Under the pieces are notes generated by a model. The model ran no database searches. It was not told the DNA's origin and saw only the letters and a list, made by a program, of their open reading frames with translations. Source: Providencia rettgeri (GTDB lineage: Bacteria; Pseudomonadota; Gammaproteobacteria; Enterobacterales; Enterobacteriaceae). Taken from it: a stretch of DNA of 64,000 nucleotides. Shown here piece after piece: positions 9,239-41,940 of the stretch (positions are counted from its first letter, which is position 1; each line of letters begins with the position of its first letter). Location of the stretch: positions 3,286,001 to 3,350,000 of the forward strand of contig NZ_CP017671.1 of the NCBI RefSeq assembly GCF_001874625.1. The letters run 5' to 3'. The translations under genes were made by a program, and so were the position numbers.

Positions 9239-10966
9239 TCAGGTCCTCTCTGTTTTGCTCAACCACATTTCATCCATTGCCCCACCACGGATTTGCATTG
9301 GATAGACGTGCTCAGTTTCATCAATATTAATATCAACAAATACTAACCGTTGATTTTCGTTCACCTCAACGAGGGCTTGTTGCAACTTGGTTTCAAGTTC
9401 ATCAGGTGAGGAGATTGAAATCCCCACATGACCATAAGCCTCTGCTAACTTAATAAAGTCAGGTAATGATTCCATATAAGATTGTGAATGGCGACCTTGG
9501 TAAATCATGTCCTGCCATTGTTTCACCATACCTAAGAAACCGTTATTTAAATTAAGTACGACAACTGGCAAACCATATTGCAGCGCGGTTGAAAGCTCTT
9601 GAATATTCATTTGGATGCTGCCATCGCCAGTCACACAAATAACCGTTGATTTAGGGTGTGCTAATTTCACCCCTAATGCAGCTGGCAAACCAAACCCCAT
9701 CGTGCCTAAGCCACCTGAGTTAATCCAATGACGTGGTTTATCAAAAGGGTAATATAATGCAGCAAACATTTGATGTTGCCCTACATCAGACGTGACATAG
9801 GCTTCCCCATTCGTTAAACGATAGATCATTTCAATCGCCTGCTGGGGCTTAACTTTTGTTGAGTTAGTTTCATAACGCAAACATTGTTTAGTACGCCATT
9901 GCGCTATATCTTTCCACCAATCTTTGAGCGCTTGGCTGTCTTGTTGTGATGATGTTTGCTCTAACTGACCCAGCATTTGTTTTAGTGTTAATTTGGCATC
10001 TCCGACAATAGGAATGTCCGCATTAACCGTTTTTGAGATAGACGTTGGGTCAACATCAATTTGAATGACCGTCGCGTTTGGACAGTATTTTTCTAAATTG
10101 TTGGTTGTACGGTCATCAAAGCGCACACCAACTGCAAAAATAACATCCGAGTTATGCATAACCTTATTGGCTTCATAGGTACCATGCATACCTAGCATAC
10201 CAACAGACTGCTGGTGAGTTTCAGGGAAAGCCCCTAACCCCATTAGTGTGGATACTACCGGCAATTGCAGTTTCTCAGCCAGTTCAATAATTTCTGCGGA
10301 GCAATTTGCATTGATGGCACCCCCACCAATATAAAAAACCGGTTTTTTTGCTGCGACTAGCTTAGATAGCGCTTTTTTTATTTGGCCTTTATGCCCTTGC
10401 AATGTTGGGTTATAAGAACGCAAAGAGACACTGTCTGGATAACGGTAAGCAAATTTTAAAGCCGGATTAACGGTATCTTTTGGAAAATCAATGACCACCG
10501 GACCCGGACGACCGCTGGCTGCAATATAAAAAGCTTTTTTGATTGTTTCAGGGATCTCTTGTGCATCTTTAATTAAAAAGCTGTGTTTAACTATTGGACG
10601 AGAAATCCCAACCATATCGCATTCTTGGAAAGCATCATTGCCAATTAGCGAACTAGCAACCTGCCCTGATAACACGACCATCGGAACAGAGTCCATATAT
10701 GCTGTCGCTATCCCTGTGATTGCATTCGTTGCACCAGGACCCGATGTCACAAGCACCACGCCGACATCCCCTGTTGAACGAGCGTAACCGTCTGCCATAT
10801 GCACCGCAGCCTGTTCATGACGCACTAAAATATGTTCTACCCCACCAACAGTGTGAAGTGCGTCATAAATATCTAATACTGCACCGCCTGGATAACCAAA
10901 CACGTGCTTTACTCCTTGGTCAATCAATGATTTGACGACCATTTCAGCTCCCGACAACATCTCCAT
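9239..10966 (-). CDS. ilvI: Acetolactate synthase III large subunit IlvI
   Basis: ThDP- and FAD-dependent enzyme making acetolactate or acetohydroxybutyrate for valine, leucine and isoleucine. The start [11 protein letters not shown] (ATG 10966, preceded by GGGGG at about 7 bp) matches the family; an upstream in-frame start at 11008 has less support. The catalytic glutamate is in [13 protein letters not shown] near residue 47, and the ThDP motif [17 protein letters not shown] lies in the C-terminal third. It has 575 residues. It forms an operon with ilvH. Confidence 0.96.
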
Positions 10967-28703: not shown

Positions 28704-28854
28704 TTCTGTTCCTCAAAATGAACCTGCCTATTAGCAAGCCCTTTTAATATTCGATTCGAATGGTTTTTATCTAATTAACTTCGCACAGTATAAATAATAA
28801 ACAAATCATGTTATTTGCACAAAGTTATTATCTGCAATACTCTCAACTCATGCG

Positions 28855-28980
28855 CTAAATAGTTCGAGCTGTCGCTAGGCGGCAAACAAGGATATCTCGG
28901 GGAGCATACACAAGTATGTGACCCGAGTAGCCGAGTGCAGCCAACACCGCCACTCTACAAAATATAACGTGCATAATGCT
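28855..28980 (+). repeat. ERIC repeat, copy 1 of tandem array
   Basis: 126-bp unit beginning CTAAATAGTTCG with the ERIC core GGGGAGCATACACAAGTATG and GAGTGCAGCCAAC. Recognised by the core shared with the 127-bp enterobacterial repetitive intergenic consensus. Its inner palindrome can fold into a long hairpin. Confidence 0.88.
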
Positions 28981-29105
28981 CTAAATAGTTCGTGTTGTGG
29001 CTAGGCGGCAAACAAGAATATCTCGGGGAGCATACACAAGTATGTGACCCGAGTAACCGAGTGCAGCCAACACCGCCACTCTACAAAATATAACGTGCAT
29101 AATGC
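28981..29105 (+). repeat. ERIC repeat, copy 2 of tandem array
   Basis: 125-bp unit, nearly identical to copies 1 and 3, head-to-tail without spacer. Tandem ERIC copies are unusual; most are single. Confidence 0.88.
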
Positions 29106-29229
29106 TCTAAATAGTTCGTGTTGTGGCTAGGCGGCAAACAAGGATATCTCGGGGAGCATACACAAGTATGTGACCCGAGTAACCGAGTGCAGCCAACACC
29201 GCCACAGCACGAAATATGACGAGCATTAG
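29106..29229 (+). repeat. ERIC repeat, copy 3 of tandem array
   Basis: Third head-to-tail unit, ending in GAAATATGACGAGC. It abuts the displaced native speA 3' terminus at 29236-29249, so before the insertion the ERIC array lay directly downstream of speA. Confidence 0.88.
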
Positions 29230-29241
29230 ATAACTTATTCG

Positions 29242-29249
29242 TCTTCGAG
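29242..29249 (+). other. attL core
   Basis: TCTTCGAG, matching attR at 40043-40050. The outer flank TTATTCG (29235-29241) is the relict end of the native speA gene; the inner flank TACTATCAGTACTGG is element sequence. Confidence 0.85.
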
Positions 29250-29910
29250 TACTATCAGTACTGGATCCTAATCCAAAAAAATTAGTTATTACAATGAATT
29301 ATAATTCATACTCACATGCTAATGAGTTTAGTTTTACATGAATATTACATGATTATATCAGGCTCCAGTACTGATATGGTAGCGTTATGATAAGTACAAA
29401 ACTGAAGCTCAATGTGTTCTCGCGACAAAGTTACTTGCCTTTAGTACTCGAATTATTGAGAGTCAGGGGGAATATACTGATTTTATGAATACTTAAAGTA
29501 ATCCCTTACTGAAGTAAAAAATGATGTGGTTTTTATATCATTGAAGTAAAAGTTCAGTACTTAATATAGATAATTAGTAATGAAAATAAAAATAACTGAA
29601 TTATAAATTTATACTACTTTTAAAAGTAAAGTAATTGTATTCTTATTCTATTTAAATGAAATGCATAATAATTTAAATAGAACTTGAATTATATCCCCTC
29701 GGTATTGCTTTTATTTTATTGAGTTTAGAATTCAGTACCTTATGCTTGTTAATAATTATTTTACGATATTATCGTGATAAGAAAATTGATATGCAAGAAA
29801 ATTTATTTAAAGAAATTATGCTAAAAATGAAAATTATGCGTTATAATAAGGTCGTTAGAACGATTATTTGAGAAATGGTTTTATGTAATGAAATTATTTT
29901 CAGGAATGAT

Positions 29911-29939
29911 GTGAAAAATTTAAAAGCATGCGTTATAAT
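29911..29939 (+). promoter_or_regulatory. Candidate inward promoter at the inner edge of the left inverted repeat
   Basis: GTGAAA (29911-29916) and a perfect TATAAT (29934-29939) at 17-bp spacing. The repeat identity stops exactly at the last T of TATAAT. Because the repeat is duplicated in inverse orientation, the same promoter reads inward from both ends of the cargo arc. Confidence 0.5.
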
Positions 29940-30109
29940 TCACTCAGTACAGTTAGTTAAAAAAATTACTTTTAAGTAACATATTATTAAGTGAAATGCA
30001 TAATTAATAGTTCATGTGGTAACATGGATATGTGAAATTGATCTTATCATAAAGAATCAGATGGCATTTTAACAACACTATTTTTATAAAACTTTTATTG
30101 GAGGAATAT

Positions 30110-30163
30110 ATGAAAATAGAAACAAAATATTTAATAGCGAAATTACTCAAGGAGAAAACATGA
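30110..30163 (+). CDS. 17-codon leader ORF, translationally coupled
   Basis: Short ORF MKIETKYLIAKLLKEKT preceded by a strong GGAGGA at 5-7 bp. Its TGA overlaps the ATG of the next gene (ATGA), and its own AAGGAG codons form the next gene's ribosome binding site. This layout suggests a coupling or leader peptide rather than an independent product. No homologue known to me. Confidence 0.5.
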   Translation: MKIETKYLIAKLLKEKT

Positions 30164-30447
30164 TAGAACATAATCGTTATAATAGAAGAAGGAATAAAAT
30201 ACTTACAAATAGAAAAACACTAAACAAAAGCGTAAGAAAGAAGAAAAGATTAGATTCTATTTCTCTTACATATGAACAGTACCTGAATATTATAATCAGT
30301 GACATATCTTACTGTAGGATCTGTAATCTTCTTAAGATGAATATAAGTAAAGCTTTCTTTCGTGATCTGATTAGTAATAAAATCCCCGAATACTCGGGTT
30401 GGTATGCCAAAGCTAAATCTATGTATTCTATAAGGAAGTACATATAA
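30160..30447 (+). CDS. Small basic protein, possible DNA-binding
   Basis: 95 residues. The first 35 residues are very rich in Arg and Lys (RYNRRRNKI, SVRKKKRLD), followed by a helical region in which ICNLLKMNISKAFFRDLI could be a helix-turn-helix. It is the first full gene of the element's left side, behind the inward promoter and coupled leader. An excisionase, replication accessory or regulator role would fit, but I do not recognise the family. Confidence 0.65.
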   Translation: MIEHNRYNRRRNKILTNRKTLNKSVRKKKRLDSISLTYEQYLNIIISDISYCRICNLLKMNISKAFFRDLISNKIPEYSGWYAKAKSMYSIRKYI

Positions 30448-30544
30448 TACTTTTGATGTAATACATTTCAACATATAACTTTTACAATCTTTTTTGTTAG
30501 AAATGGATTGTAAAAGTTATTTAACGACAACAAGGATAAAAAAG

Positions 30545-31213
30545 TTGAATAAACTTAAATACGTATCTGCACCTTGTGGAGCAGGTAAAACGCATTACAT
30601 ATGTAATGAAATTAACAATAGTAATGATAAATTTTTAATTGTTCAATGTACTCAAGAACTAATACGAGATACAGCAAAAAAGATTAAAGATTGTAAACCT
30701 ATCACTACTGACTCAATATCTAATGGTAAGCGAGTTATTGATCATGTTATAGATTTCATGAATAGTCCAAGTAATAGAACACTAATCATTTCAGATAAAA
30801 CTTTTTTTAAAATACCTATAGAACTCTTATCTGGATGGGTTATATATTTAGATGACGTAACTAACTTTCATGAATTTAAATTAATAAATGAAGGTAACAC
30901 CAAGATAAAGGAAGTAATAAAAGATGAATTGATATGTAATATTAAAAACCTCGATGGTAGCGAAGAGTATATAATAGCAGATAGTAAATTAAAGTCGCAT
31001 GGAGATATTGTTAGTAATATTTCCAATGACTTTTCAATTATGAAAAACAATCATATTTTAATAATGAATAAGAGTTATTTTTTAGACTCGGATAAAACGC
31101 AATTAAGCATAACAGGTTTTAAAGACCTTAATAGATATGTTGAACTAGATATAACATTCTTTAGTGCTAATTTTGAAAACTCATTGATATATAAAAAAAC
31201 AAAAAAATTTTAA
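30545..31213 (+). CDS. Helicase-like P-loop protein, N-terminal half (zero frame)
   Basis: Begins at a TTG (30545) preceded by AAGGA, giving MNKLKYVSAPCGAGKTHYI; an ATG at 30503 has no ribosome binding site. Walker A is APCGAGKT, and the Walker B-like WVIYLDDV lies about 90 residues on, as in superfamily 2 helicases and origin-binding proteins of plasmids and phages. The frame stops at 31211 immediately after A AAA AAA TTT TAA. The -1 frame continues the protein, so this is either a programmed frameshift or a broken gene. Probable role: replication of the element. Confidence 0.65.
   Translation: MNKLKYVSAPCGAGKTHYICNEINNSNDKFLIVQCTQELIRDTAKKIKDCKPITTDSISNGKRVIDHVIDFMNSPSNRTLIISDKTFFKIPIELLSGWVIYLDDVTNFHEFKLINEGNTKIKEVIKDELICNIKNLDGSEEYIIADSKLKSHGDIVSNISNDFSIMKNNHILIMNKSYFLDSDKTQLSITGFKDLNRYVELDITFFSANFENSLIYKKTKKF
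31195..31213 (+). promoter_or_regulatory. Candidate programmed -1 ribosomal frameshift site
   Basis: In zero frame the sequence reads A AAA AAA TTT TAA (heptamer 31201-31207), the X XXY YYZ form used by dnaX and many IS elements, with the stop codon two codons later. A -1 slip leads straight into the open downstream frame. No clear downstream pseudoknot; AAGGA at 31216-31220 lies after, not before, the heptamer. Confidence 0.5.
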
Positions 31214-31962
31214 AAAAGGAAAACATTCAAAGCTTACTTACTAGAAAAATTCCTCTTAAAGATAGAATTAAGGTTTATTATTTTTCAGAAAAGATACAAC
31301 TCTCGAAAACCTGGAAGAAAAATAATCCTGAAAAACTAAAGAAAATATATAATTACTTGAATGATAAGCTTAAATATGAAGAATTTTATTGGACAAAAAA
31401 CAGAGCTGACATTCAAAAACTTAATGACGGTACAAAGATAAGCCCAGATCCTAGAGGCTTAAATCAGTATAGTAAGATTAAAACCTGTGTATGGCTTGCT
31501 TGCATGAGGCCATCAGATGTAGAAGCAACTCAATGTAAATTATTTTTTGAACTATCTATGGCAGAAGTTCATCATGCTAGAGAATATGAAAGTTTGCATC
31601 AGTTTGTACTTAGAGGGATATCAAGAGATTATAATAGTACTGAGATACAGACTGTTTATGTTTTCGACAAATTTCAGGCAAACTATCTCACTGATAATAT
31701 TGAGTATATAGATCTTGGCCTTGATGACGATGAATGTGCACTGAGAGGAAGACCAAAAGGCTCTACAAACAAAGAAAAACGTTTTACTCTTTCTAATACA
31801 AAAGCTAGCCGCTTCAGTCGCTGGAAAGCAAATAACCCAGAGCTTAATGTTTCGGAATTTAATAAATTTCTATCAAGCCAAATCAATAAAGATCTCAATG
31901 AAGAAGAAAGAAATGAAATGTACAATAAGTACGAGAAAGCAATTCAAAAGAAAAATAAATAA
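31201..31962 (+). CDS. Helicase-like protein, C-terminal half (-1 frame)
   Basis: Open from the slip site without stop to 31962; the first ATG in this frame is 31357, with no good ribosome binding site, supporting expression as a -1 fusion. It contains ARxYESLHQFVLRGISRDYNS and VYVFDKFQANYL, arranged like the late helicase motifs (Q-x-x-x-R) of origin-binding SF2 enzymes. An AT-hook, RGRPKGSTNKEKR, follows and would bind AT-rich DNA. The fusion would be about 470 residues. The repeat-rich candidate origin lies directly downstream. Confidence 0.6.
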   Translation, partial: KKILKKENIQSLLTRKIPLKDRIKVYYFSEKIQLSKTWKKNNPEKLKKIYNYLNDKLKYEEFYWTKNRADIQKLNDGTKISPDPRGLNQYSKIKTCVWLACMRPSDVEATQCKLFFELSMAEVHHAREYESLHQFVLRGISRDYNSTEIQTVYVFDKFQANYLTDNIEYIDLGLDDDECALRGRPKGSTNKEKRFTLSNTKASRFSRWKANNPELNVSEFNKFLSSQINKDLNEEERNEMYNKYEKAIQKKNK

Positions 31963-32215
31963 CCCTGCTCTTTGTCAGAAACACTATCAGACATTCAAAA
32001 TGTGTCATAAAAATAATCCCTATAATTATATAAGGGAATAAATTTCGGACATATCAATGAGGAAGGGCAATTTAAATTCTTTTTATTGCTCATTTAGTAA
32101 ACCGCAAGCTCGCTGCGGTGAGCTATGTGAGCAATAAAAGGAATTTATTGCGTGTCTAGGTCTCGCAAGAGACTAGACTCAGTTACCAAACGAATAAGAA
32201 TGTATATTATTTTTC

Positions 32216-32408
32216 TTCGCAGAAGATTACTCTCTTGGCGAGAGCAATCACTGGTATTTCTTCTTTTATTTCGTTTTTTTCGCGAAAAAAACTCATAACG
32301 AAAAAATACCTGCACTAAATCAGTACTGAACTAAAAAGTACTATTACTGACCTTAGAATATGCCCATGTCGAGCGTTAGCGAGTACATGGCTAAGTGAGC
32401 TAATTTAA
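32216..32408 (+). repeat. Long direct repeat, copy A
   Basis: About 193 bp repeated at an offset of 199 bp with only a few differences near the end. Each unit carries GATTACTCTC/GAGAGCAATC, a perfect 20-bp palindrome GTTTTTTTCGCGAAAAAAAC, CAGTACTG and CCATGT...ACATGG arms. Confidence 0.85.
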
Positions 32409-32414
32409 TTTTTT

Positions 32415-32607
32415 TTCGCAGAAGATTACTCTCTTGGCGAGAGCAATCACTGGTATTTCTTCTTTTATTTCGTTTTTTTCGCGAAAAAAACTCATAACGA
32501 AAAAATACCTGCACTAAATCAGTACTGAACTAAAAAGTACTATTACTGACCTTAGAATATGCCCATGTCGAGCGTTAGCGAGTACATGACTAAGTGAGTT
32601 AATTTAG
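32415..32607 (+). repeat. Long direct repeat, copy B
   Basis: Second copy of the unit at 32216. A diverged third partial copy (CTTAGAATATGCCCATGACG..., about 32620-32685) follows. Iterated units with internal hairpins recall plasmid origins, although the unit is longer than normal iterons. Confidence 0.85.
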
Positions 32608-32868
32608 TACTGGATTAGTACTGAACTGAAGAGAACTATCATCGATCTTAGAATATGCCCATGACGAGCTTTAGCGAGTACATGGTATTTCAAAGATTAT
32701 ATGACCTAATAACATTGATCGTTATCTCCTATTGATTGAATAGTTATCGATAGGCTTAATAGATTTTAACGATCGTTTTTGTTTAATTGATCGTTTTTAT
32801 CGATCAATATTTTAGAGTGTGATATAATTGCTTCAATTAAATGTAAAAATCTAATCAAGGAGAATTAG

Positions 32869-33489
32869 GTGCCTCAACTAATAGCTATTGTTATCACTAC
32901 ATTTTTAGCTGTATTAGTCTATAAAAAAATGTCTAGATACTTTAAGGGGAAAGGATTAGGCAAAGGTTCCATATTTTTTGTGGCTTTTATTCCGTCTGTA
33001 TTGTTATATATTGTAATGTATTCAGTACTTCATAATCTTACATCTCCTACTATCGTTCTTAAGTATAAGAATACAGATAATGAAATTGTATACTTAGAGT
33101 TTAATGATAAAGATCCATTAGAAATGTCACTTTATAAGAGTATAAAATCTTATCCTATTGGTAGTGTTGAATTTGCGAGAGCAGTTAATATATATTTAAG
33201 CTATGGAATAAGTTTGAAAGATTTTGATGAAAAAATTCGTCCAGATTGCCAAAAAGATTTTAATAAATTAAGTTCATGGTATGGTGAGCAAGTGAAGTAC
33301 TGGCAGCAATTTCCCGTGCATGTGCGAAATGTTGAAATACAAAAAGCATTGGAACTACTAACCAAAAAACAGAAAATAGTTATACCGAAAATGGAGGAGT
33401 GTTTCTATACTGAATCTCAAAAATTAACCAATCGCATCCCAAGAAACCCTGACGCTTTTAAATTTAAATATATGGCAACGACATTTTAG
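32869..33489 (+). CDS. Orphan membrane protein of the element
   Basis: 206 residues from a GTG start (32869) preceded by AAGGAG at 6-7 bp. Two hydrophobic segments, about residues 3-18 and 34-54, separated by a Lys-rich loop, suggest a membrane hairpin followed by a soluble C-terminal domain of about 150 residues with many aromatic and charged residues. I do not recognise the family. The next gene has the same architecture, so the pair may act together. Confidence 0.7.
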   Translation: MPQLIAIVITTFLAVLVYKKMSRYFKGKGLGKGSIFFVAFIPSVLLYIVMYSVLHNLTSPTIVLKYKNTDNEIVYLEFNDKDPLEMSLYKSIKSYPIGSVEFARAVNIYLSYGISLKDFDEKIRPDCQKDFNKLSSWYGEQVKYWQQFPVHVRNVEIQKALELLTKKQKIVIPKMEECFYTESQKLTNRIPRNPDAFKFKYMATTF

Positions 33490-33653
33490 TTGGATTTAGT
33501 CTGAACAATAGTTAGGTGGGTGTCAATACATTTTATTTAATTCATTAAATAATAAGATGATACAATTTAATTGATTAATATTTAACCAGTTAAAAACACA
33601 ATCTTATCTAATAACCACTGTTAATAGTCATTTAACATAGAATGGGGTTTTTT

Positions 33654-34214
33654 ATGAATCCGTTAGTACTATTTTTAATTAGTATGTTAATAGGAATATA
33701 TTGTTATATAAAGTTGAATAAATGGTGCATTAAAAGTAATATAAATGGATTTATTAAATATATTTTTTTGATTGGAATTAGCTTTATTGGATTTATACTA
33801 ACATTTGTAATGTTAGTATTGGTATTCAATACAAACAAGAATACAGAGAATAACATACCAAAAAATAGTTTGAATAATTCCAGTAAAGTCCCAGTATCTA
33901 GGGAAGTTGAGCGTTCGATAGTAAAAGGAAGCTCAGAATATGAAAAAGAAATATTTTATGTTGCTTACTGTTACGGCTACTCAACTGCGGTTCCGAATAA
34001 TCGAAAAATGGCTAAATTTTATAGTGAAAAATTTGATATATACTTTTATCAAGTATTAGAGCAAGCAGACAGGAATCCATATCAATTTATCTCATGGCGA
34101 GATGGAATGGTGAAATATAAAAATATAGGTATAAGATCATATTCTAGTAATAAAAATAAAACAGTAGATCAAAAAATGTGTGATACGTATTACGATCTTG
34201 CAGGTAATATATAA
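33654..34214 (+). CDS. Second orphan membrane protein of the element
   Basis: About 186 residues from ATG 33654, which has GGGG at 6 bp; an ATG four codons earlier (33642) lacks one. Two N-terminal hydrophobic segments (about 1-18 and 33-57) precede a soluble C-terminal part with CYGYSTAVPNNRKMAKFY and CDTYYDLAG. It shares topology and size with the preceding gene but little obvious sequence. Function unknown. Confidence 0.7.
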   Translation: MNPLVLFLISMLIGIYCYIKLNKWCIKSNINGFIKYIFLIGISFIGFILTFVMLVLVFNTNKNTENNIPKNSLNNSSKVPVSREVERSIVKGSSEYEKEIFYVAYCYGYSTAVPNNRKMAKFYSEKFDIYFYQVLEQADRNPYQFISWRDGMVKYKNIGIRSYSSNKNKTVDQKMCDTYYDLAGNI

Positions 34215-34334
34215 TAGTCTTCCAATAAATTAGAGTGAGTTGCATAAACTCACTCTTTACTTAAAGTAAAACCTTTGAATGCTATGATATCAATAGGATT
34301 TTCCTATATAGATATAATAAGTAAAAAAAATAAG

Positions 34335-34901
34335 CTATGTTTGTTGGTTAACTGATCGTAATTTCTTGACTCTAAAAACTGTAGCTCGACCACAATCACA
34401 AAGCTTAGCTATTTCATCAGCAGTATATTTTCCAGTTTCTAGCATTTCACCTATTTTACTATGCAGTACTGCATTTTTTTGTTTTCCTTTGTATTTTCCA
34501 GCCTTTTTAGCAATAGCAATACCTTCGTCTCTTCTAGATGCAATAATACCTCGTTCAAACTCTGCCACTGCTCCCATCATCGTCAAAATTAGCCTTGAAG
34601 CGGGAGAATTATCAAAACTCATGTTATTGTCTAAGAACCTAACAGTGATTCCTTTTTCTACTAACTCATCCACTAGCGATAAGAGTTCTTTAGTATTACG
34701 GGCTAATCTATCGATAGACTTTATAATGAGAGTATCACCTTCCCTTAAATGCGATAATAGTAATAGTAGTTCTGGCCTATCGTTAATATTTTTCCCTGAT
34801 ACTTTTTCTTGAATCACTTTGTTGCAGATAGGTTCAAGTACTGAAAGCTGCCTTTCTAGATTTTGATCTTTTGAAGAAACTCGAACATAGCCGAATATCA
34901 T
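34335..34901 (-). CDS. Serine recombinase (resolvase/invertase family)
   Basis: 188 residues. The catalytic domain starts MIFGYVRVSSKDQNLERQ with the nucleophilic serine near residue 9-10. IIKSIDRLARNTKELL and the conserved ASRLILTMMGAVAEFERGII helix follow, and then a C-terminal HTH (YTADEIAKLCDCGRATVFRVKK). Size and order match Tn3-type resolvases and Hin-type invertases. It lies inside the cargo arc, facing a res-like repeat set. It may resolve dimers or multimers of the circular form. It could also belong to an older nested element. Confidence 0.88.
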   Translation of the reverse strand: MIFGYVRVSSKDQNLERQLSVLEPICNKVIQEKVSGKNINDRPELLLLLSHLREGDTLIIKSIDRLARNTKELLSLVDELVEKGITVRFLDNNMSFDNSPASRLILTMMGAVAEFERGIIASRRDEGIAIAKKAGKYKGKQKNAVLHSKIGEMLETGKYTADEIAKLCDCGRATVFRVKKLRSVNQQT

Positions 34902-34912
34902 ATTAAGCCCTT

Positions 34913-34979
34913 TAGTATCATTTACTATACCAAAATGATACTAAATCATATAGATGGGATCAAGTACTAAATGATACTA
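34913..34979. promoter_or_regulatory. Res-like or operator repeats upstream of the serine recombinase
   Basis: TAGTATCATTT (34913-34923) and AAATGATACTA (34933-34943) are perfect 11-bp inverted arms with a 9-bp spacer, and AAATGATACTA recurs at 34969-34979. Three copies directly upstream of the recombinase start fit a recombination/autoregulation site. The divergent NACHT gene starts 113 bp further on, so the site may affect it too. Confidence 0.6.
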
Positions 34980-35092
34980 TTTTAGTTGAATTAGGCGGGT
35001 ATCATTAGGGAGTAGTTAAAAGACTACCATTAGAATAGTTATGAAAATCAAAACAAGCTATACTCATTGTTATTTGATTACAAGGAAAGAAT

Positions 35093-37360
35093 ATGAAACA
35101 AGAACATCTAAAAAAACTAGAATCCTTAGAATATGAAGTTAGGGATTTTCATCCTATACTTAAGCAACTATTTTCACGTTTACCATCAATAACCCAAGTA
35201 GAGTATAAGCAGGGGCCAAATGAAAAAGGGGCTGACTTTGTTTTAATAAAAAGAGATGAATCATTAGACGAAGAGCGATACATTGGCATAATTTGTAAAA
35301 TTGGTAAAATTACACAGTCAAATAGTGAAGTCGATAGGCAAATTGAAGAATGTCAATTATTTGAGAGATTCATTCAAGGTGCGGCAAAAAAAATCTATCT
35401 TAATGAAATTTGGGTTGTTAGTAATACTACTATATCTAGCAACGCTGAAGAAAAATTTTATCAAAAATATAAAAATACAAATATACGGTTTCTTAGTGGT
35501 GAAAAAGTTGTAAGTTTAATTACTAGGCATTATCCTGAGTTTTGGGATTATAATAGTGTTAACTTTGGTCAATACTTTTCAAGTACATTATCTTTAATGT
35601 CTAAAGGAAATGACTCTTCATTTTTTGGCCCTGTAGGGATTAATGAGTATATTGAGCAAAGAATAATAAAAGAATCATCAAAAAAACATAAACAAAAACC
35701 AATTACTTTATATAATGCAATTCAAAATGAGCGTTATATATTTCTTGAAGGTACTGTTGGATCAGGGAAGAGTACAATATTAAAACAGCTGATATCAAAA
35801 CTTCAAATTGATGTCGAAAAAAATGAAAACTATATGATACCTATATTATTTCAATATTCTGATATCATTACTAATAATTGTAGCATTGATGACTTAATAA
35901 AAAGCACGCTTAAATCCAATAATTTACCAGAAGATAAGCCATTGATTTTTATTGTGGATTCAGTCGATGAGGTAAATGAATCTCTCCCAGAAAGATTACA
36001 TAATTTCACAAATATTGTTAACTGTATATCAAAGCTAGATAATGTTAAATTAGTGGTAGCATCTAGAACAATGGACTCTGTTCAAGATTATGACCTTATT
36101 GATAGAATGTTTTCTAGATTTTCCATATTACCTCTTAGTATTTACCAAATAATAAATTTTGTAGATAAGATATGTAATGATATGGATATCTCAAACAAAT
36201 TAAAAAATGGGATAGAAAAAACACCTTTATTTAAATGTATACCACGGACTCCTATTAGTGCTATTTTATTAGCAAGAATATTGAAGGATGAAATTAAAGA
36301 GTTACCATCTACTATGACTGAATTATACTCTAAATATACGGAGATAGTACTGGGACGGTGGGATACTTCAAAAGGATTGTTATCTCAAATAGAATATGAC
36401 GTCATGAATAATATATTATTAGAGTTATCTAGTTATATGATGAAAAATTCTTTAACATGTGTTTCTATTTCAGAAATAAGAGATATTTATTTAAGTTATA
36501 TAGAAAAAAGAAAAATAAATATTGATGAGGATAAGCTTTTCAATCGCTTGATCTACAAAAATGAAATTGCCTTCGTAAATGAAAAAAATCAAACCTACAG
36601 CTTCATTCACCGCTCTTTTATGGAGTATTTTTATGCTGAGTTTATGAGGAAAAATAATTCAGCAATAATTGATGAAGAAATTTATGAAATTTATTGGTCA
36701 AATAGTTACTTTTTTTATTTTGGATTATTAAGAGATAGTGAAGAAACATTAACACTGGTTAATAATATCAAAGCTTCTTCTAATAGAACTAGATTTTTGA
36801 AATTGTTTTTTAATGGAAGTTTTTTGTTAGCAGCCTACTTAACACCATATAATAAGATTAAAGAGGGAGTTTATGATGCATTCATGGATGCTGGTAAGCT
36901 ATTAGAAGATACATTATGTGGAAATACTGATACCCCTTTAAATAATTTAACACCTATGTCCTTATTGTGCATTTTTACTAAATGTTTGAATAATAATTAT
37001 AGTTATGATTTTTTTAGAGAAGCATTAGAATATTCAATAGAAAGGATCTATAATTCTAGAGATGTGGGAGCATATGTTAATTATGCAAAATATTTTATTG
37101 CATCATGCCTTAATGAATTAGGGGACTCTGAATCATTTGATGACCTAATCCAAGATAAAGATTTAAATATATTAATCACTCTTGGAATTAGGCATAACAT
37201 TGAAGATTCAAATAACTCAAGTAAATCTGTAGATAAGTATTTGAAGAAACATTTTAAGACAGTAAGAAAAAACCCAATAATGAAAGACTACATATATTCT
37301 TTATATGAAAAGCCCACTCAAGAACTAACTGCTAATAATAAAATTGACATGAATAAATGA
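35093..37360 (+). CDS. NACHT/STAND NTPase with N-terminal nuclease-like domain (NLR-type defence candidate)
   Basis: 755 residues. The N-terminal 160 residues resemble a PD-(D/E)xK fold (ADFVL with D48, then IGIICKIGK with K69), but the expected acidic or Gln residue two before the Lys is Ile67, so catalysis is doubtful. The NACHT ATPase has Walker A GTVGSGKST (220-228), Walker B IFIVDSVDE (285-293), the sensor VVASRT and the winged-helix-end motif FIHRSFMEYFYAEF. The C-terminal 250 residues look helical with no clear repeats. Bacterial NACHT proteins (bNACHT) defend against phages by oligomerising on a trigger. AAGGA precedes the ATG. Confidence 0.85.
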   Translation: MKQEHLKKLESLEYEVRDFHPILKQLFSRLPSITQVEYKQGPNEKGADFVLIKRDESLDEERYIGIICKIGKITQSNSEVDRQIEECQLFERFIQGAAKKIYLNEIWVVSNTTISSNAEEKFYQKYKNTNIRFLSGEKVVSLITRHYPEFWDYNSVNFGQYFSSTLSLMSKGNDSSFFGPVGINEYIEQRIIKESSKKHKQKPITLYNAIQNERYIFLEGTVGSGKSTILKQLISKLQIDVEKNENYMIPILFQYSDIITNNCSIDDLIKSTLKSNNLPEDKPLIFIVDSVDEVNESLPERLHNFTNIVNCISKLDNVKLVVASRTMDSVQDYDLIDRMFSRFSILPLSIYQIINFVDKICNDMDISNKLKNGIEKTPLFKCIPRTPISAILLARILKDEIKELPSTMTELYSKYTEIVLGRWDTSKGLLSQIEYDVMNNILLELSSYMMKNSLTCVSISEIRDIYLSYIEKRKINIDEDKLFNRLIYKNEIAFVNEKNQTYSFIHRSFMEYFYAEFMRKNNSAIIDEEIYEIYWSNSYFFYFGLLRDSEETLTLVNNIKASSNRTRFLKLFFNGSFLLAAYLTPYNKIKEGVYDAFMDAGKLLEDTLCGNTDTPLNNLTPMSLLCIFTKCLNNNYSYDFFREALEYSIERIYNSRDVGAYVNYAKYFIASCLNELGDSESFDDLIQDKDLNILITLGIRHNIEDSNNSSKSVDKYLKKHFKTVRKNPIMKDYIYSLYEKPTQELTANNKIDMNK

Positions 37361-37380
37361 TTTTAAAATAGAAATACCCA

Positions 37381-37773
37381 TTAATTGGGTATTTCTATTT
37401 TATTTACTATTCTATAATTCATATTTAAAATCTTGAATGCTGCAAAATCCACATTTGGAATCGCTATAACAATTTTTTTTGCACCTTTTTGCCTTAGCCA
37501 ACAAGTTCTATGCCTACCATTCCATATGCTAAATTTATTATTAACCATTGTCACTAAAGGAACAAAAAAATAATTTTTATAAAACCATACATTTTTGGTT
37601 TTTTTTCTTAATTTAGACTGTACGTTTAGCTTTTCATATTTATCCATTAAATCATATACATGCTCTATTTTAACTCTTAGGTATATTACTTGTGATACAC
37701 AGTCGTTAACAAAAACTTTGTAAGTTTTCGTTTTCGTTTTCGTTTTTCTTTTTAGCATTTTTTTTATTTTCAT
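37381..37773 (-). CDS. Small ParB/sulfiredoxin-like protein
   Basis: 130 residues. The segment FSIWNGRHRTCWLRQKGAKKIVIAIP near residues 80-105 resembles the ParB/Srx-fold motif (I-x-D/N-G-x-H-R). The N-terminus is very basic with a Lys-Thr repeat coded by an iterated TTTTCG hexamer (37728-37752, plus strand). AAAGGAGA precedes the start. Oriented inward from the right inverted repeat, so the inward promoter there may drive it. Partition, nuclease or regulator roles are possible; identification is tentative. Confidence 0.6.
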   Translation of the reverse strand: MKIKKMLKRKTKTKTKTYKVFVNDCVSQVIYLRVKIEHVYDLMDKYEKLNVQSKLRKKTKNVWFYKNYFFVPLVTMVNNKFSIWNGRHRTCWLRQKGAKKIVIAIPNVDFAAFKILNMNYRIVNKIEIPN

Positions 37774-37947
37774 GGTTTATCTCCTTTGGATTTTAAAAAT
37801 TTGCGTTTTAATGGGGGTTAAATATAATTTAATTACTTAGTTAATATTATTTACTAATGAAGCCTATCGTAGGCACTAGTGGATAGTATCTAATAGATAT
37901 TATTTTAGAGTATTTATTGAAAATCAACATTTGGTTATTTCAACCAC

Positions 37948-38736
37948 ATTATAACGCATGCTTTTAAATTTTTCACATCATTCCTGAAAATAATTTCATT
38001 ACATAAAACCATTTCTCAAATAATCGTTCTAACGACCTTATTATAACGCATAATTTTCATTTTTAGCATAATTTCTTTAAATAAATTTTCTTGCATATCA
38101 ATTTTCTTATCACGATAATATCGTAAAATAATTATTAACAAGCATAAGGTACTGAATTCTAAACTCAATAAAATAAAAGCAATACCGAGGGGATATAATT
38201 CAAGTTCTATTTAAATTATTATGCATTTCATTTAAATAGAATAAGAATACAATTACTTTACTTTTAAAAGTAGTATAAATTTATAATTCAGTTATTTTTA
38301 TTTTCATTACTAATTATCTATATTAAGTACTGAACTTTTACTTCAATGATATAAAAACCACATCATTTTTTACTTCAGTAAGGGATTACTTTAAGTATTC
38401 ATAAAATCAGTATATTCCCCCTGACTCTCAATAATTCGAGTACTAAAGGCAAGTAACTTTGTCGCGAGAACACATTGAGCTTCAGTTTTGTACTTATCAT
38501 AACGCTACCATATCAGTACTGGAGCCTGATATAATCATGTAATATTCATGTAAAACTAAACTCATTAGCATGTGAGTATGAATTATAATTCATTGTAATA
38601 ACTAATTTTTTTGGATTAGGATCCAGTACTGATAGTACTCGAAGATGAGTAACCAGTACTGAAAGGTTAGGTGCTAATATAGTACCTAACCTTTATTTTC
38701 AATGTGTTATGTGAATATTCGCGTGCTGATGGTAAA
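37948..38736 (-). repeat. 789-bp internal inverted copy of attP
   Basis: Positions 37948-38645 are the exact reverse complement of 29242-29939, and 38638-38736 the exact reverse complement of 39952-40050; the two parts share the 8-bp core. Read on the minus strand it is right arm-core-left arm, exactly what circularisation of the element at attL/attR would create. It thus represents a second attP inside the integrated element. Confidence 0.95.
38638..38645 (-). other. Third att core, inverted, inside the element
   Basis: CTCGAAGA on the plus strand, the complement of TCTTCGAG. Flanked on both sides by CAGTACTG motifs at similar distances, as at the terminal sites combined. Confidence 0.88.
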
Positions 38737-38769
38737 AACTTAGCTATGTTGGAACAACATGGCTAAGTT
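38734..38769 (-). terminator. Integrase terminator
   Basis: Minus strand AACTTAGCCATGTT and AACATAGCTAAGTT form a 14-bp stem with a single mismatch and a 5-nt loop, followed by TTTTT. It overlaps the last codons of the integrase gene and the edge of the internal attP copy. Confidence 0.75.
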
Positions 38770-39938
38770 CGGTCAATTGCTTCTTTCATCAGAAAAATAG
38801 GCTCTTTCCCTCTGTATACGCTATCAGTCATAGTACTACTACTGTGACCAAGTATGCTAAACCTTATATGGTCGGGAAGGTCTGATATATCTCTTAGCCT
38901 ATCACTCATAGCGTATCGATAGTCATGTGGGCTATGCTTTTCATCTATTTTTTTAAATAGGTTTGCTACAGCATTAGATACTGGATTATGAACAGTCCAT
39001 GGAAATACAGGCTTCTCATTCATAATTCCGCTTTGAAGTAAATTTTTATGAATTGGTATAGTTCTTATACTACTTGAATTTTTAATCCTCTTACCATCCC
39101 TATCATTAACACTTATACAAGCTATTTTTTGTCCTTTATCTGCAATGTAGACATAATCCTGCTCTGTTAACTGTATACATTCGGTAACTCTCATACCTGT
39201 GTAATATAGTACCTGTATAAGCCACCACAGATGAGATTTGTGCTCTATAAGTTCAAGTACTTTTTTGTGTGATTCAGTGGATACTGAGATTCTAGGGTTA
39301 ATTTTTTTAATCTTCTTATATCCCATATTACTAAAAGGGTTTTTAGTAATATAATCCCTTTTATCAGCGGCAAAGCTAAAAAGAGCTGATACTTTCTTAA
39401 ACATGGATTGGCTAGAGAATTCAGACTTATACTTATTCTTTAAAGCTTTTTTAAAACTAGCTACCTTTGGTTTGTTAAATGATTGAATATCTTTATCACC
39501 ATATAGGCTAATTAAGTAATCAATCGCAGCCTTGTTACCTTTAAATGTTAATGGCCTCCATTCAGATTTCATTTCGTTGTACCACTCATCAGCAACTTGG
39601 CTAATTTTATGCCCTTTAGCTTGAAAGCGGCTATCATTCTGCTGTCTATTAGGTAAATTCCCGCTATTAATCCAATAAATGTAGTTTGCCTCTAAATGGA
39701 TCCCTTCTTCGATGAACATATCTCGCTCATTCATTAAATGTGCTCTGATCTCATCAAAATCAGTGCATTCTTTTTTTAATCGATGAAAAGTACTAAGTAG
39801 AATTTTTGAACGTTTATGAGCGATTTGTAGATCTCTAGTTCTCAAGTCAAATCGAATTAGCTTTCCTACATATGACTTTTGCCAAATATAATAACCACGA
39901 GAATTACATGAAATATACATGAAATGTACATGTGCCAT
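38763..39938 (-). CDS. Tyrosine-type site-specific integrase
   Basis: About 391 residues from ATG 39938, which has AAGGGG at 5-6 bp; the open frame extends to 39986 into the repeat. The N-terminal arm-binding region, SAM-like core-binding domain (ADEWYNEMKSEW onward) and catalytic domain are in the usual order. Catalytic residues visible: R in YTGMRVTECIQL, H-x-x-R in SPHDYRYAMS, the LGH in ILGHSS and the terminal tyrosine in DSVYRG. Its promoter must lie in the 99-bp repeat 39952-40050, next to attR. It presumably recognises the speA terminus. Confidence 0.9.
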   Translation of the reverse strand: MAHVHFMYISCNSRGYYIWQKSYVGKLIRFDLRTRDLQIAHKRSKILLSTFHRLKKECTDFDEIRAHLMNERDMFIEEGIHLEANYIYWINSGNLPNRQQNDSRFQAKGHKISQVADEWYNEMKSEWRPLTFKGNKAAIDYLISLYGDKDIQSFNKPKVASFKKALKNKYKSEFSSQSMFKKVSALFSFAADKRDYITKNPFSNMGYKKIKKINPRISVSTESHKKVLELIEHKSHLWWLIQVLYYTGMRVTECIQLTEQDYVYIADKGQKIACISVNDRDGKRIKNSSSIRTIPIHKNLLQSGIMNEKPVFPWTVHNPVSNAVANLFKKIDEKHSPHDYRYAMSDRLRDISDLPDHIRFSILGHSSSTMTDSVYRGKEPIFLMKEAIDRT

Positions 39939-39951
39939 TGGTGCCCCTTGA

Positions 39952-40050
39952 TTTACCATCAGCACGCGAATATTCACATAACACATTGAAAATAAAGGTT
40001 AGGTACTATATTAGCACCTAACCTTTCAGTACTGGTTACTCATCTTCGAG
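39952..40050 (+). repeat. 99-bp inverted repeat, right copy (attP right arm)
   Basis: Exact reverse complement of 38638-38736. It contains the att core, the last two codons and stop of speA, a hairpin that can terminate speA, a CAGTACTG motif and the upstream region of the integrase gene. Confidence 0.95.
39990..40026 (-). terminator. Element-borne terminator after speA
   Basis: AAAGGTTAGGT and ACCTAACCTTT form an 11-bp perfect stem with an 11-nt loop, followed by ATTTT on the minus strand, 10 bp past the speA stop. Because it is element DNA, it ends speA transcription and helps uncouple speB. Confidence 0.7.
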
Positions 40051-41940
40051 ATAAGTATACCCATACAACCCGTTCTCGAACTCTGCCACAAAATCTTTCT
40101 GTAGCTGCTCACTCAGCCCCGTCCCTTTAACTTGCTCAGTAAAGCTTTCTAATAACACTTCAGGAACCAGTTTAACGTATTGCAGCATATCAGCCACGGA
40201 GTCGCCTTCTTCACTTTGTAAGTAACGCACATTACCTTGGCTATCAACCCATACATCTATCGCAGCGGTATCACCGAATAAATTATGCATGTTGCCTAAA
40301 ATTTCCTGATATGCACCAATCATAAAGAAACCAATCATTGGTGGGTTTTCTGGGTCATAAGCAGGCATTGGCATGGTGGTTTCAACCCCATCGCCATCGA
40401 CATAATGGTCAATAATACCGTCAGAATCACATGTTATGTCTAACAATACAGCACGGCGGTCTAATGGTTTATCTAGCCCCTCAATCGGCAATACAGGGAA
40501 AACTTGGTCAATACCCCATGAGTCTGGTAATGACTGGAATAAGGAGAAATTAACATAGAACTTATCTGCCATACGTTCTTGAAGTTCATCGATTATTGGA
40601 CGATGAGCACGGTTACTCGGGTCCAAATCTTGTTGAATACGGCGGCAAATATTAAGATACAACTCTTCAGCCCATGCACGTTGAGTTAAATCTAAAACAC
40701 CATGTGCGTATTGGGTATGCGCTTCTTGTAAGTCAAACTGACTATCATGTAACCATTCACGCAACGAGCGGCTATTCCCTTGATGTTGCATCGATTCCCA
40801 TGTGTCCCACAATGAAATAAGTGAGCGCGGGGCATCTTCATTTGGTGGTGATGTCTTAGTAAATTCGTTGCGCTCTACACCAATCACATTGGAAACTAAA
40901 ACGGTATGATGCGCCGTTAACGCACGGCCAGATTCAGTGATAACCGTTGGGTGTGGTAACCCAAACTCTTCACAAGCATCACCAATAGCCCAAATCACGT
41001 TGTTAGCGTATTCATTTAAACCATAGTTAACTGAGCAATCAGATTGGGAGCGAGTCCCCTCATAGTCAACACCTAGACCACCGCCCACATCAAAACATTG
41101 AATATTGACGCCTATACGATGTAGTTCCACATAAAAACGCGCGGATTCACGAACACCCGTGGCAATATCACGAATATTTGCCATCTGAGAACCCAGATGA
41201 AAATGAAGCAGTTGCAAGCTGTCTAAACGACCTGCATTACGCAGGATTTCGACTAACTGTAATACTTGAGTCGCAGCCAAACCAAATTTGGATTTTTCAC
41301 CACCACTAGCTTGCCATTTACCAGACCCTTGCGAAGCAAGACGGGCACGTACCCCTAAGCGTGGAGTGACATCGAGGCTTTTAGCTTCTGCGAGTACCAT
41401 CTCAATTTCGGACATTTTTTCGATCACCAGATAAACTTTGTGACCTAATTTTTCCCCAATCAGAGCTAAGCGAATGTATTCACGGTCTTTATAACCGTTA
41501 CAAACAATCACTGTCTGTGTTTTGCCTGCATTGGCTAAAACAGCCATTAACTCTGCTTTAGAGCCCGCTTCTAGCCCTAATGGTTCCCCCGAATTGACTA
41601 AAGATTCAATCACACGGCGTTGTTGGTTGACTTTGATAGGATAAACAAGGAAATAATCCCCCTTGTAGCCATAAGATTCACGAGCACGTCTAAACGCCGC
41701 ATTTATTGAGCGAAGGCGATGCTGTAGAATTTGTGGGAAGCAAAACAAAGCAGGTAAACGTAAATGCTGTTGTTCTTCTTTGACCTCGTTTACAAGGTCA
41801 GCTAAATCAACAAAGGTGTCAGGGTTTTCAGGATTAGGGCAAACACAGACATTTCCGCGCTCATTCACCTGATAGTAACCACCACCCCAATACGCAATAT
41901 TGTAAGTCTGGCGCATTTTGCGAGCGATATTATCATTCAT
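40036..41940 (-). CDS. speA: Biosynthetic arginine decarboxylase SpeA
   Basis: PLP-dependent fold-III decarboxylase producing agmatine for putrescine synthesis. It has 634 residues, opening with the [14 protein letters not shown] region. The PLP lysine is in YPIKVNQQR (near residue 100), with HFHLGSQ and [10 protein letters not shown] following. It ends YTYLEDE; the last two codons and stop come from the integrated element but keep the native amino acids. Divergent from metK, as in E. coli. Confidence 0.96.

Follow-up and report, generated by a model that had tools for sequence, protein, structure and literature searches.

An integrative element at the speA end of Providencia rettgeri whose computed circle carries two inverted attP sites, in a layout resembling the yeast 2-micron plasmid

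The 64,000-nucleotide stretch of Providencia rettgeri DNA analysed here (the window; contig NZ_CP017671.1, positions 3,286,001 to 3,350,000) includes an integrative element of 10.8 kb, which sits between speA and speB, at the 3' end of the arginine decarboxylase gene speA. In addition to the attachment sites at its two ends, attL and attR, the element contains a complete internal attP site. As a result, the circle computed for its excision has two complete attP sites in inverted orientation, which separate the cargo genes from the gene for the element's tyrosine integrase (int, product Int). The sites and genes that define this layout are the following.

29242..29939, no strand: A arm copy 1 (A1), at attL, beginning with the 8-bp core; 698/698 inverted match
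37948..38645, no strand: A arm copy 2 (A2), inverted; 698/698
37948..38736, no strand: internal complete attP, composed of A arm, core (38638-38645) and B arm; 789/789
38638..38736, no strand: B arm copy 2; 99/99
39952..40050, no strand: B arm copy 1, at attR, its outer 8 bp being the core within speA; 99/99
38662..38694, plus strand: terminator-like hairpin with 15-bp stem, inside B arm copy 2
39994..40026, minus strand: hairpin inside B arm copy 1, between speA and int
38763..39986, minus strand: tyrosine integrase, open reading frame (ORF) of 407 amino acids (aa); Pfam PF00589 at 32.6 bits (cut-off 27.1), PHROG integrase at E 8e-27
40036..41940, minus strand: speA, arginine decarboxylase, the target gene, with element-derived final codons
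29235..29249, minus strand: host-side attL scar with the original last codons of speA; same sequence at the empty site in L038
27783..28703, minus strand: speB, the host gene left of the element, named by resemblance without a family search

The two A arms are identical at all 698 positions; a longer pairing of 705 nucleotides has mismatches at 29238 and 29241, two positions that belong to the host side of attL. The B arms, likewise inverted, are identical at all 99 positions. Repeats of such length are not due to chance. The 8-bp core (TCTTCGAG / CTCGAAGA) is common to all three junctions. The computed excision circle measures 10,801 bp, and its new attP of 789 bp is the reverse complement of the internal segment 37948-38736 (789/789), so that the internal attP is inverted relative to the one expected from excision. 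A cargo arc of 8008 bp is bounded by the inverted A arms, and an integrase arc of 1215 bp by the inverted B arms. When the window's own genome was searched with the 789-bp sequence, these three places and no further copy were listed. The original prediction had described the exact inverted copies of 698 and 99 bp, their meeting at one core, the reversed excision attP and the sizes of circle and arcs, all of which were confirmed by computation. Its further claim of a 2-micron-like layout holds for the computed circle.

The core falls in the last codons of speA (Leu-Glu-Asp). The element provides a synonymous end of speA, CTC GAA GAT GAG TAA, and the original CTC GAA GAC GAA TAA remains at 29235-29249. 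In a survey of the genus with 24 genomes, one per species, speA and speB lie side by side in 20, at a distance of 17-454 bp, and three genomes (the window's own, G003 and G014) carry an element at speA; in the remaining one, the stretch L044 stops at a contig end. Since the two genes adjoin in 20 of the 24 genomes, the insertion is real, and the claim that the element is integrated was borne out by attL and attR sharing the core and by the empty site in relatives. The window's core reads CTCGAAGA and that of G003 and G014 TTAGAAGA; both correspond to the Leu-Glu-Asp codons of the respective host. One of the 20 genomes, G019, has a B-arm piece of 83-85 bp at the end of speA (L046:1430-1500), 86% identical and with the hairpin included (stem 12 bp). 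There is no element, and the piece is read as the scar of a past visit. Together with the presence of the element on plasmids, the scar suggests past movement. Just outside the element, the speA-speB gap contains three tandem 126-bp repeats (28850-29227), 90-95% identical to the first. A scan of window positions 24000-46000 at the Rfam gathering score gave no match.

The elements in the two other species share both the site and the architecture. In G014 (locus L010), the A arms measure 739 bp, the B arms 111 bp and the arcs 7974 and 1185 bp; in G003 (locus L011), the corresponding values are 689 bp, 111 bp, and 8338 and 1185 bp. As related elements in two species retain it, the mirrored layout looks like a working feature rather than an accident. 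The integrase is also found in 24 plasmid records from Providencia, Proteus and Morganella (96.9-99.3% identity), all 24 typed as conjugative. In 20 of them, int is present with both B arms, a single place covering at least 80% of 37948-40050, and in the other four int is truncated. An assembly artefact is ruled out by the layout in two other species and by these 20 plasmid records.

The arms have been homogenised. A comparison of L010 with L011 shows A-arm differences at 42/680 (A2 with A2) to 51/730 (A1 with A1) sites, or 6-7%, about as much as the host genes speA (78/1905) and speB (58/924). Within each of these elements, host-side attL bases aside, the A arms differ at only three inner-edge positions and, in L010, by one 9-bp repeat unit in addition. 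This unit belongs to a run of 9-bp repeats at L010:6267-6347. The B arms of about 100 bp are identical within each element. Had the arm copies diverged as far as L010 and L011 did, 41-45 differences would be expected. Near-identity within elements and 6-7% divergence between species thus argue that the arm copies have exchanged sequence since L010 and L011 split, in line with the recent or continuing exchange that had been claimed from the window's perfect repeats. The alternative that the inverted copy arose anew in each element is unlikely, because the layout is shared.

The orientation of the arcs can be read from the cargo genes, which in the window are arranged as follows.

30160..30447, plus strand: 95-aa ORF, no clear family
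30494..31213, plus strand: weakly helicase-like protein, N-terminal piece (phrog_2467, unknown function)
31357..31962, plus strand: helicase-like gene, C-terminal piece
32204..32685, no strand: long tandem repeats, 2 x 199 bp with a partial third copy
32714..32868, no strand: non-coding block, about 74% conserved across the three chromosomal elements, rich in ATCGAT-type words
32869..33489, plus strand: 206-aa ORF, putative membrane protein (by eye), no Pfam or PHROG match
33642..34214, plus strand: 190-aa ORF, putative membrane protein, resembling by eye 190-aa ORFs of L010 and L011
34335..34901, minus strand: serine resolvase/invertase, Pfam Resolvase E 1e-37
34913..35033, no strand: res-like site upstream of the resolvase, conserved in L010, L011 and the left end of plasmid copies L004 and L005
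35093..37360, plus strand: NACHT STAND NTPase, Pfam NCH1 E 1e-36, NACHT E 3e-10
37381..37773, minus strand: 130-aa ORF with a GRHR segment; by eye, a similar ORF at the opposite cargo-arc end in L010

In the window and in L011, the resolvase gene is on the minus strand and a replication-type gene lies at the A1 end. In L010, the cargo order is mirrored and int keeps its orientation. One alignment of 908 bp (85%) extends from A2 of L010 beyond the inner edge of that arm and pairs it with A1 of L011 and the inner flank there. A relative with the arcs in opposite relative orientation, which the original prediction had called for, was therefore found. These isomers were seen across species with partly different cargo, in three elements. 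Integration via the other attP would flip both arcs together, so a single arc was inverted or exchanged independently of the other.

Four of the 24 plasmid loci were read. In L004 and L005, int lies between inverted B arms of 98-99 bp, with one A arm adjoining. In L032 and L033, int is truncated and only the outer B arm is present. The plasmid flank beyond int occurs in 40 records, 16 of them without this int. Comparison with the two of these 16 that were read (L031 and L034) gives an exact junction on the int side at TCTACGAG, a single base away from the element core. Because all 24 records share one site, the plasmid copies probably go back to a single insertion event. The left end of the copies (L004:3993-4082 and L005:5993-6082) is a res-like site that matches the one upstream of the element's resolvase. 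That L004 runs into such a site suggests a later deletion by the resolvase, joining this end to a plasmid site. L005 also has a second, diverged partial A arm (9354-9650) in direct orientation, which stops at the position of the core, as though two insertions adjoined there.

The explanation that we favour, with a probability of roughly 45%, is that of a plasmid-like integrative element, the integrase of which would insert it into the end of speA and leave the encoded protein unchanged. The circular form would carry two complete, inverted attP sites. Recombination between them, whether Int acts at the core, RecA within the arms, or both, would flip one arc relative to the other, and exchange within the arms would keep the copies equal. 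On a replicating circle, a flip between the inverted sites could let the forks chase each other and so multiply the element before re-integration, with Flp on the yeast 2-micron plasmid as the model for this step. The serine resolvase and the res-like site would cut multimers to monomers. To our knowledge, Flp-type inversion as a replication amplifier is known from yeast plasmids. Without the amplification and multimer-cutting step, the explanation is likely to be correct; that step itself, which is argued by analogy, we regard as a doubtful hypothesis. The sequences themselves show the two attP copies, the recurrence of this arrangement in two other species, the equalised arms, and the cargo arc in either relative orientation. 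We conclude that the attP copies recombine, or exchange cargo, in nature, and infer that the doubled attP is kept by selection. Genes of replication type and for multimer resolution also speak for our explanation: the weakly helicase-like gene, a 939-aa protein of L011, and the resolvase with its res-like site in all three elements.

Several observations weigh against this explanation. Just three chromosomal elements are known, two of them from closely related species. The integrase arc has the same orientation in all three, and int begins beside the same plasmid flank in all 24 plasmid records; this constancy counts against frequent Int-driven inversion, with the reservation that there are few independent events. 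Integrases of the lambda type carry out attP x attP recombination poorly. The element has no proven replication origin, the 939-aa protein of L011 itself matched no replication family, and the helicase-like gene, a single open frame of 478 aa in L010, is broken in the window (30494-31962). AGTACT words, candidates for arm-type Int sites within attP, occur in the internal attP at about 24 times the expected number (6 observed, 0.25 expected), but they are not specific to it, because the cargo arc is enriched as well (14 observed, 2.6 expected). Moreover, the cargo of L010 and that of L011 overlap only in part, and their resolvase genes differ at 57/579 positions, compared to 136/2829 in host genes (p 1e-5) and 33/1185 in the integrase arc (p 1e-9), although the excess is marginal against the A arms (p 0.02) or speB alone (p 0.01). 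On account of this excess, an exchange of cargo, which could also have produced the opposite orientation, is a live alternative to inversion in place. According to this alternative, the inverted att sites around the cargo arc would let Int, or RecA in the arms, swap one cargo arc for another, in either orientation. Besides the diverged resolvase, it draws on the fact that L010 and L011 occupy the same site with integrase arcs 97% and A arms 93-94% alike and largely different cargo, and that L004 and L005 hold still other genes beside the same integrase arc. However, neither donor nor intermediate has been caught, the excess divergence comes from one gene, and the plasmid copies are without the inverted left A arm, so that two-site exchange is not visible on plasmids now. 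On balance, we consider it rather unlikely as the main explanation.

A somewhat stronger competitor, which we would still bet against, assigns the attP copies to integration and excision only and leaves it to RecA to equalise the arms and flip the cargo, without inversion by Int. The inverted state was seen solely for the arc with long (~700-bp) arms, and this fits RecA-type recombination too: the arc with arms of 689-739 bp was found inverted, and the one with arms of 99-111 bp was not. Gene conversion would also account for the identity of whole arms, whereas exchange at an 8-bp core would not. Retention of a second complete attP, B arm included, across 40% Int divergence is then left unexplained, and even the B arms of about 100 bp are identical within each element. 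The constant orientation of int could instead mean that only an int-off orientation is stable in the chromosome. Int would then invert its own arc as a switch: when integrated, int reads from the junction with the host, with the B-arm hairpin in between and no link to the A arm, and the circle would rejoin the A arm to int and turn it on. The orientation in the three chromosomal elements and all 24 plasmid records is the required one, and a hairpin does lie between core and int, its 15-bp stem kept in L010 despite sequence change. Yet no promoter-like site was predicted in the A arm toward int, other elements are generally known to obtain a similar off-switch with one attP, and a single orientation in so few independent events is perhaps due to chance or common descent. 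We judge the switch improbable. Least credible by far is a functionless chance duplication of attP, or an artefact of assembly. The broken helicase-like gene of the window would suit it, but the occurrence of this layout in three genomes, the 20 plasmid records in which int has both B arms, and the homogenised arms all speak against it.

The integrase probably starts at 39938, as annotated on plasmid L004, which gives a protein of 391 aa preceded by AAGGGG. In an alignment with two relatives, Arg, His-x-x-Arg, His and Tyr, the motif residues of tyrosine recombinases, stand in conserved columns. The protein matches the Phage_integrase model above cut-off, the PHROG integrase and, weakly, XerC/XerD models; no Flp model was listed at E up to 0.1. 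A single-sequence structure prediction of Int was unusable (mean pLDDT 35). The searches of solved structures made in this analysis gave weak, uninformative matches or none. As a promoter scan found fewer sites than in shuffled sequence (4 versus 12.2), no promoter is claimed.

The integrases of L010 and L011 are 60% identical to that of the window. Matches were found in 4/147 genomes of relatives (E 1e-30), 6/392 genomes of the family (E 1e-25) and 2/394 genomes of the order (E 1e-60), and those in genomes other than the window's, G003 and G014 are distant. E. coli genomes gave no near match, and six phage records match with less than 60% identity each. Scans with the Int alignment gave 33 pattern matches in the genome_contigs and 23 in the viral_contigs collection, of which none was confirmed, and the B-arm pattern had no match in either; records near the window's genome were possibly excluded from both collections. 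Distant relatives of Int in five genomes (28-34% identity) lie in stretches of 20 kb (L012, L016, L017 and L018) or 38 kb (G765) that contain no long inverted att copies, with one short imperfect inverted pair each in L012 and L016; arms lying beyond these stretches would have escaped notice. As far as examined, the doubled attP thus seems to mark one clade.

Nine ORFs of the element were scanned against Pfam and PHROG. The N-terminal helicase-like piece scores just below the cut-off of the Pfam ResIII model (22.3 bits, cut-off 22.5). The tandem repeats at 32204..32685 have a counterpart in L010, an array with a 163-bp period, and the conserved block that follows them is a candidate regulatory or origin region. 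The serine resolvase is present in all three chromosomal elements (with 86-89% DNA identity in L010 and L011); the site upstream of it is called res-like for its position and repeats. The NACHT protein is a probable anti-phage cargo, with weak PADLOC and NCBIfam matches among antiphage models, the latter far under cut-off. Probable defence genes are also present in the relatives: L011 encodes an NB-ARC/TPR protein, and a protein of L010 matches a nucleoid-associated anti-phage model at E 6e-60, under the cut-off of that model. A relative of the 939-aa protein of L011, at locus L030, has a PrimPol match (E 1e-4), far under cut-off. Elsewhere, the helicase-like family (L028) and the 939-aa family (L029, with a large serine recombinase by eye) occur alongside a related resolvase, so that a replication-plus-resolvase module may be shared or exchangeable between elements. 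No inverted pairs were found at L028 and L030, and L029 has 13 imperfect ones (70-81%), none of att type.

No earlier description of such a bacterial element, or of its attachment-site architecture, was among the results listed by word searches of one open-access library, which includes few subscription papers and no bioRxiv set. The circle of an integrative element usually has one attP. With tyrosine-integrase elements at the 3' ends of protein genes, the present element shares attL and attR, an integrase near one end, a restored reading frame and a probable defence cargo; unlike them, it has two attP, in inverted orientation. The distant relative in G765 (Int ~34%) has direct repeats and no long inverted pair in 38 kb. 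A bacterial integrase family with paired inverted attP sites would break the usual assumption of one attP; annotation tools may misread its elements, and short-read assembly may collapse them. In Thermococcales archaea, a tyrosine recombinase has reportedly been proposed to cause inversions, but these are large and chromosomal and do not involve paired sites inside one element. Strand-biased circularizing elements are likewise small and integrative; they encode two tyrosine recombinases, IntA and IntB, and have inverted motifs at their ends (19-bp imperfect C/C' motifs; PMC9345347). Here, in contrast, there is one tyrosine integrase among the nine ORFs scanned, and the element has a full attP in its interior.

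Double rolling circle replication, as described for yeast 2-micron derivatives (PMC3147054), combines inverted sites and a recombinase with a replication mode that raises recombination between the repeats. The present element has inverted sites and a recombinase as well, and the resemblance is known from its layout alone. The yeast 2-micron plasmid is described as a circle in which two inverted repeats, each with a site for the plasmid-encoded tyrosine recombinase, delimit two arcs that occur as isomers (PMC6594588, PMC3147054). As with Flp and its FRT sites, identical inverted repeats with recombinase sites divide the computed circle into two arcs. Unlike the yeast plasmid, the element is bacterial and integrates into a chromosome, its arcs are very unequal, and its recombinase matches phage-integrase and Xer models and no Flp model. 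Rep1/Rep2 partition families were not listed among the nine ORFs scanned, and STB was not searched. By analogy, the element would work like the 2-micron family, but it is not a member, since its integrase is of phage type and no partition gene was recognised. That a bacterial family evolved the 2-micron strategy independently of yeast, with amplification by flipping followed by integration via either of two equivalent attP sites, is a tentative proposal that we do not expect to hold in full. A bacterial integrase family with paired inverted attP sites that homogenisation keeps equal would be a case of convergence, and would offer a tractable model in a fast-growing host.

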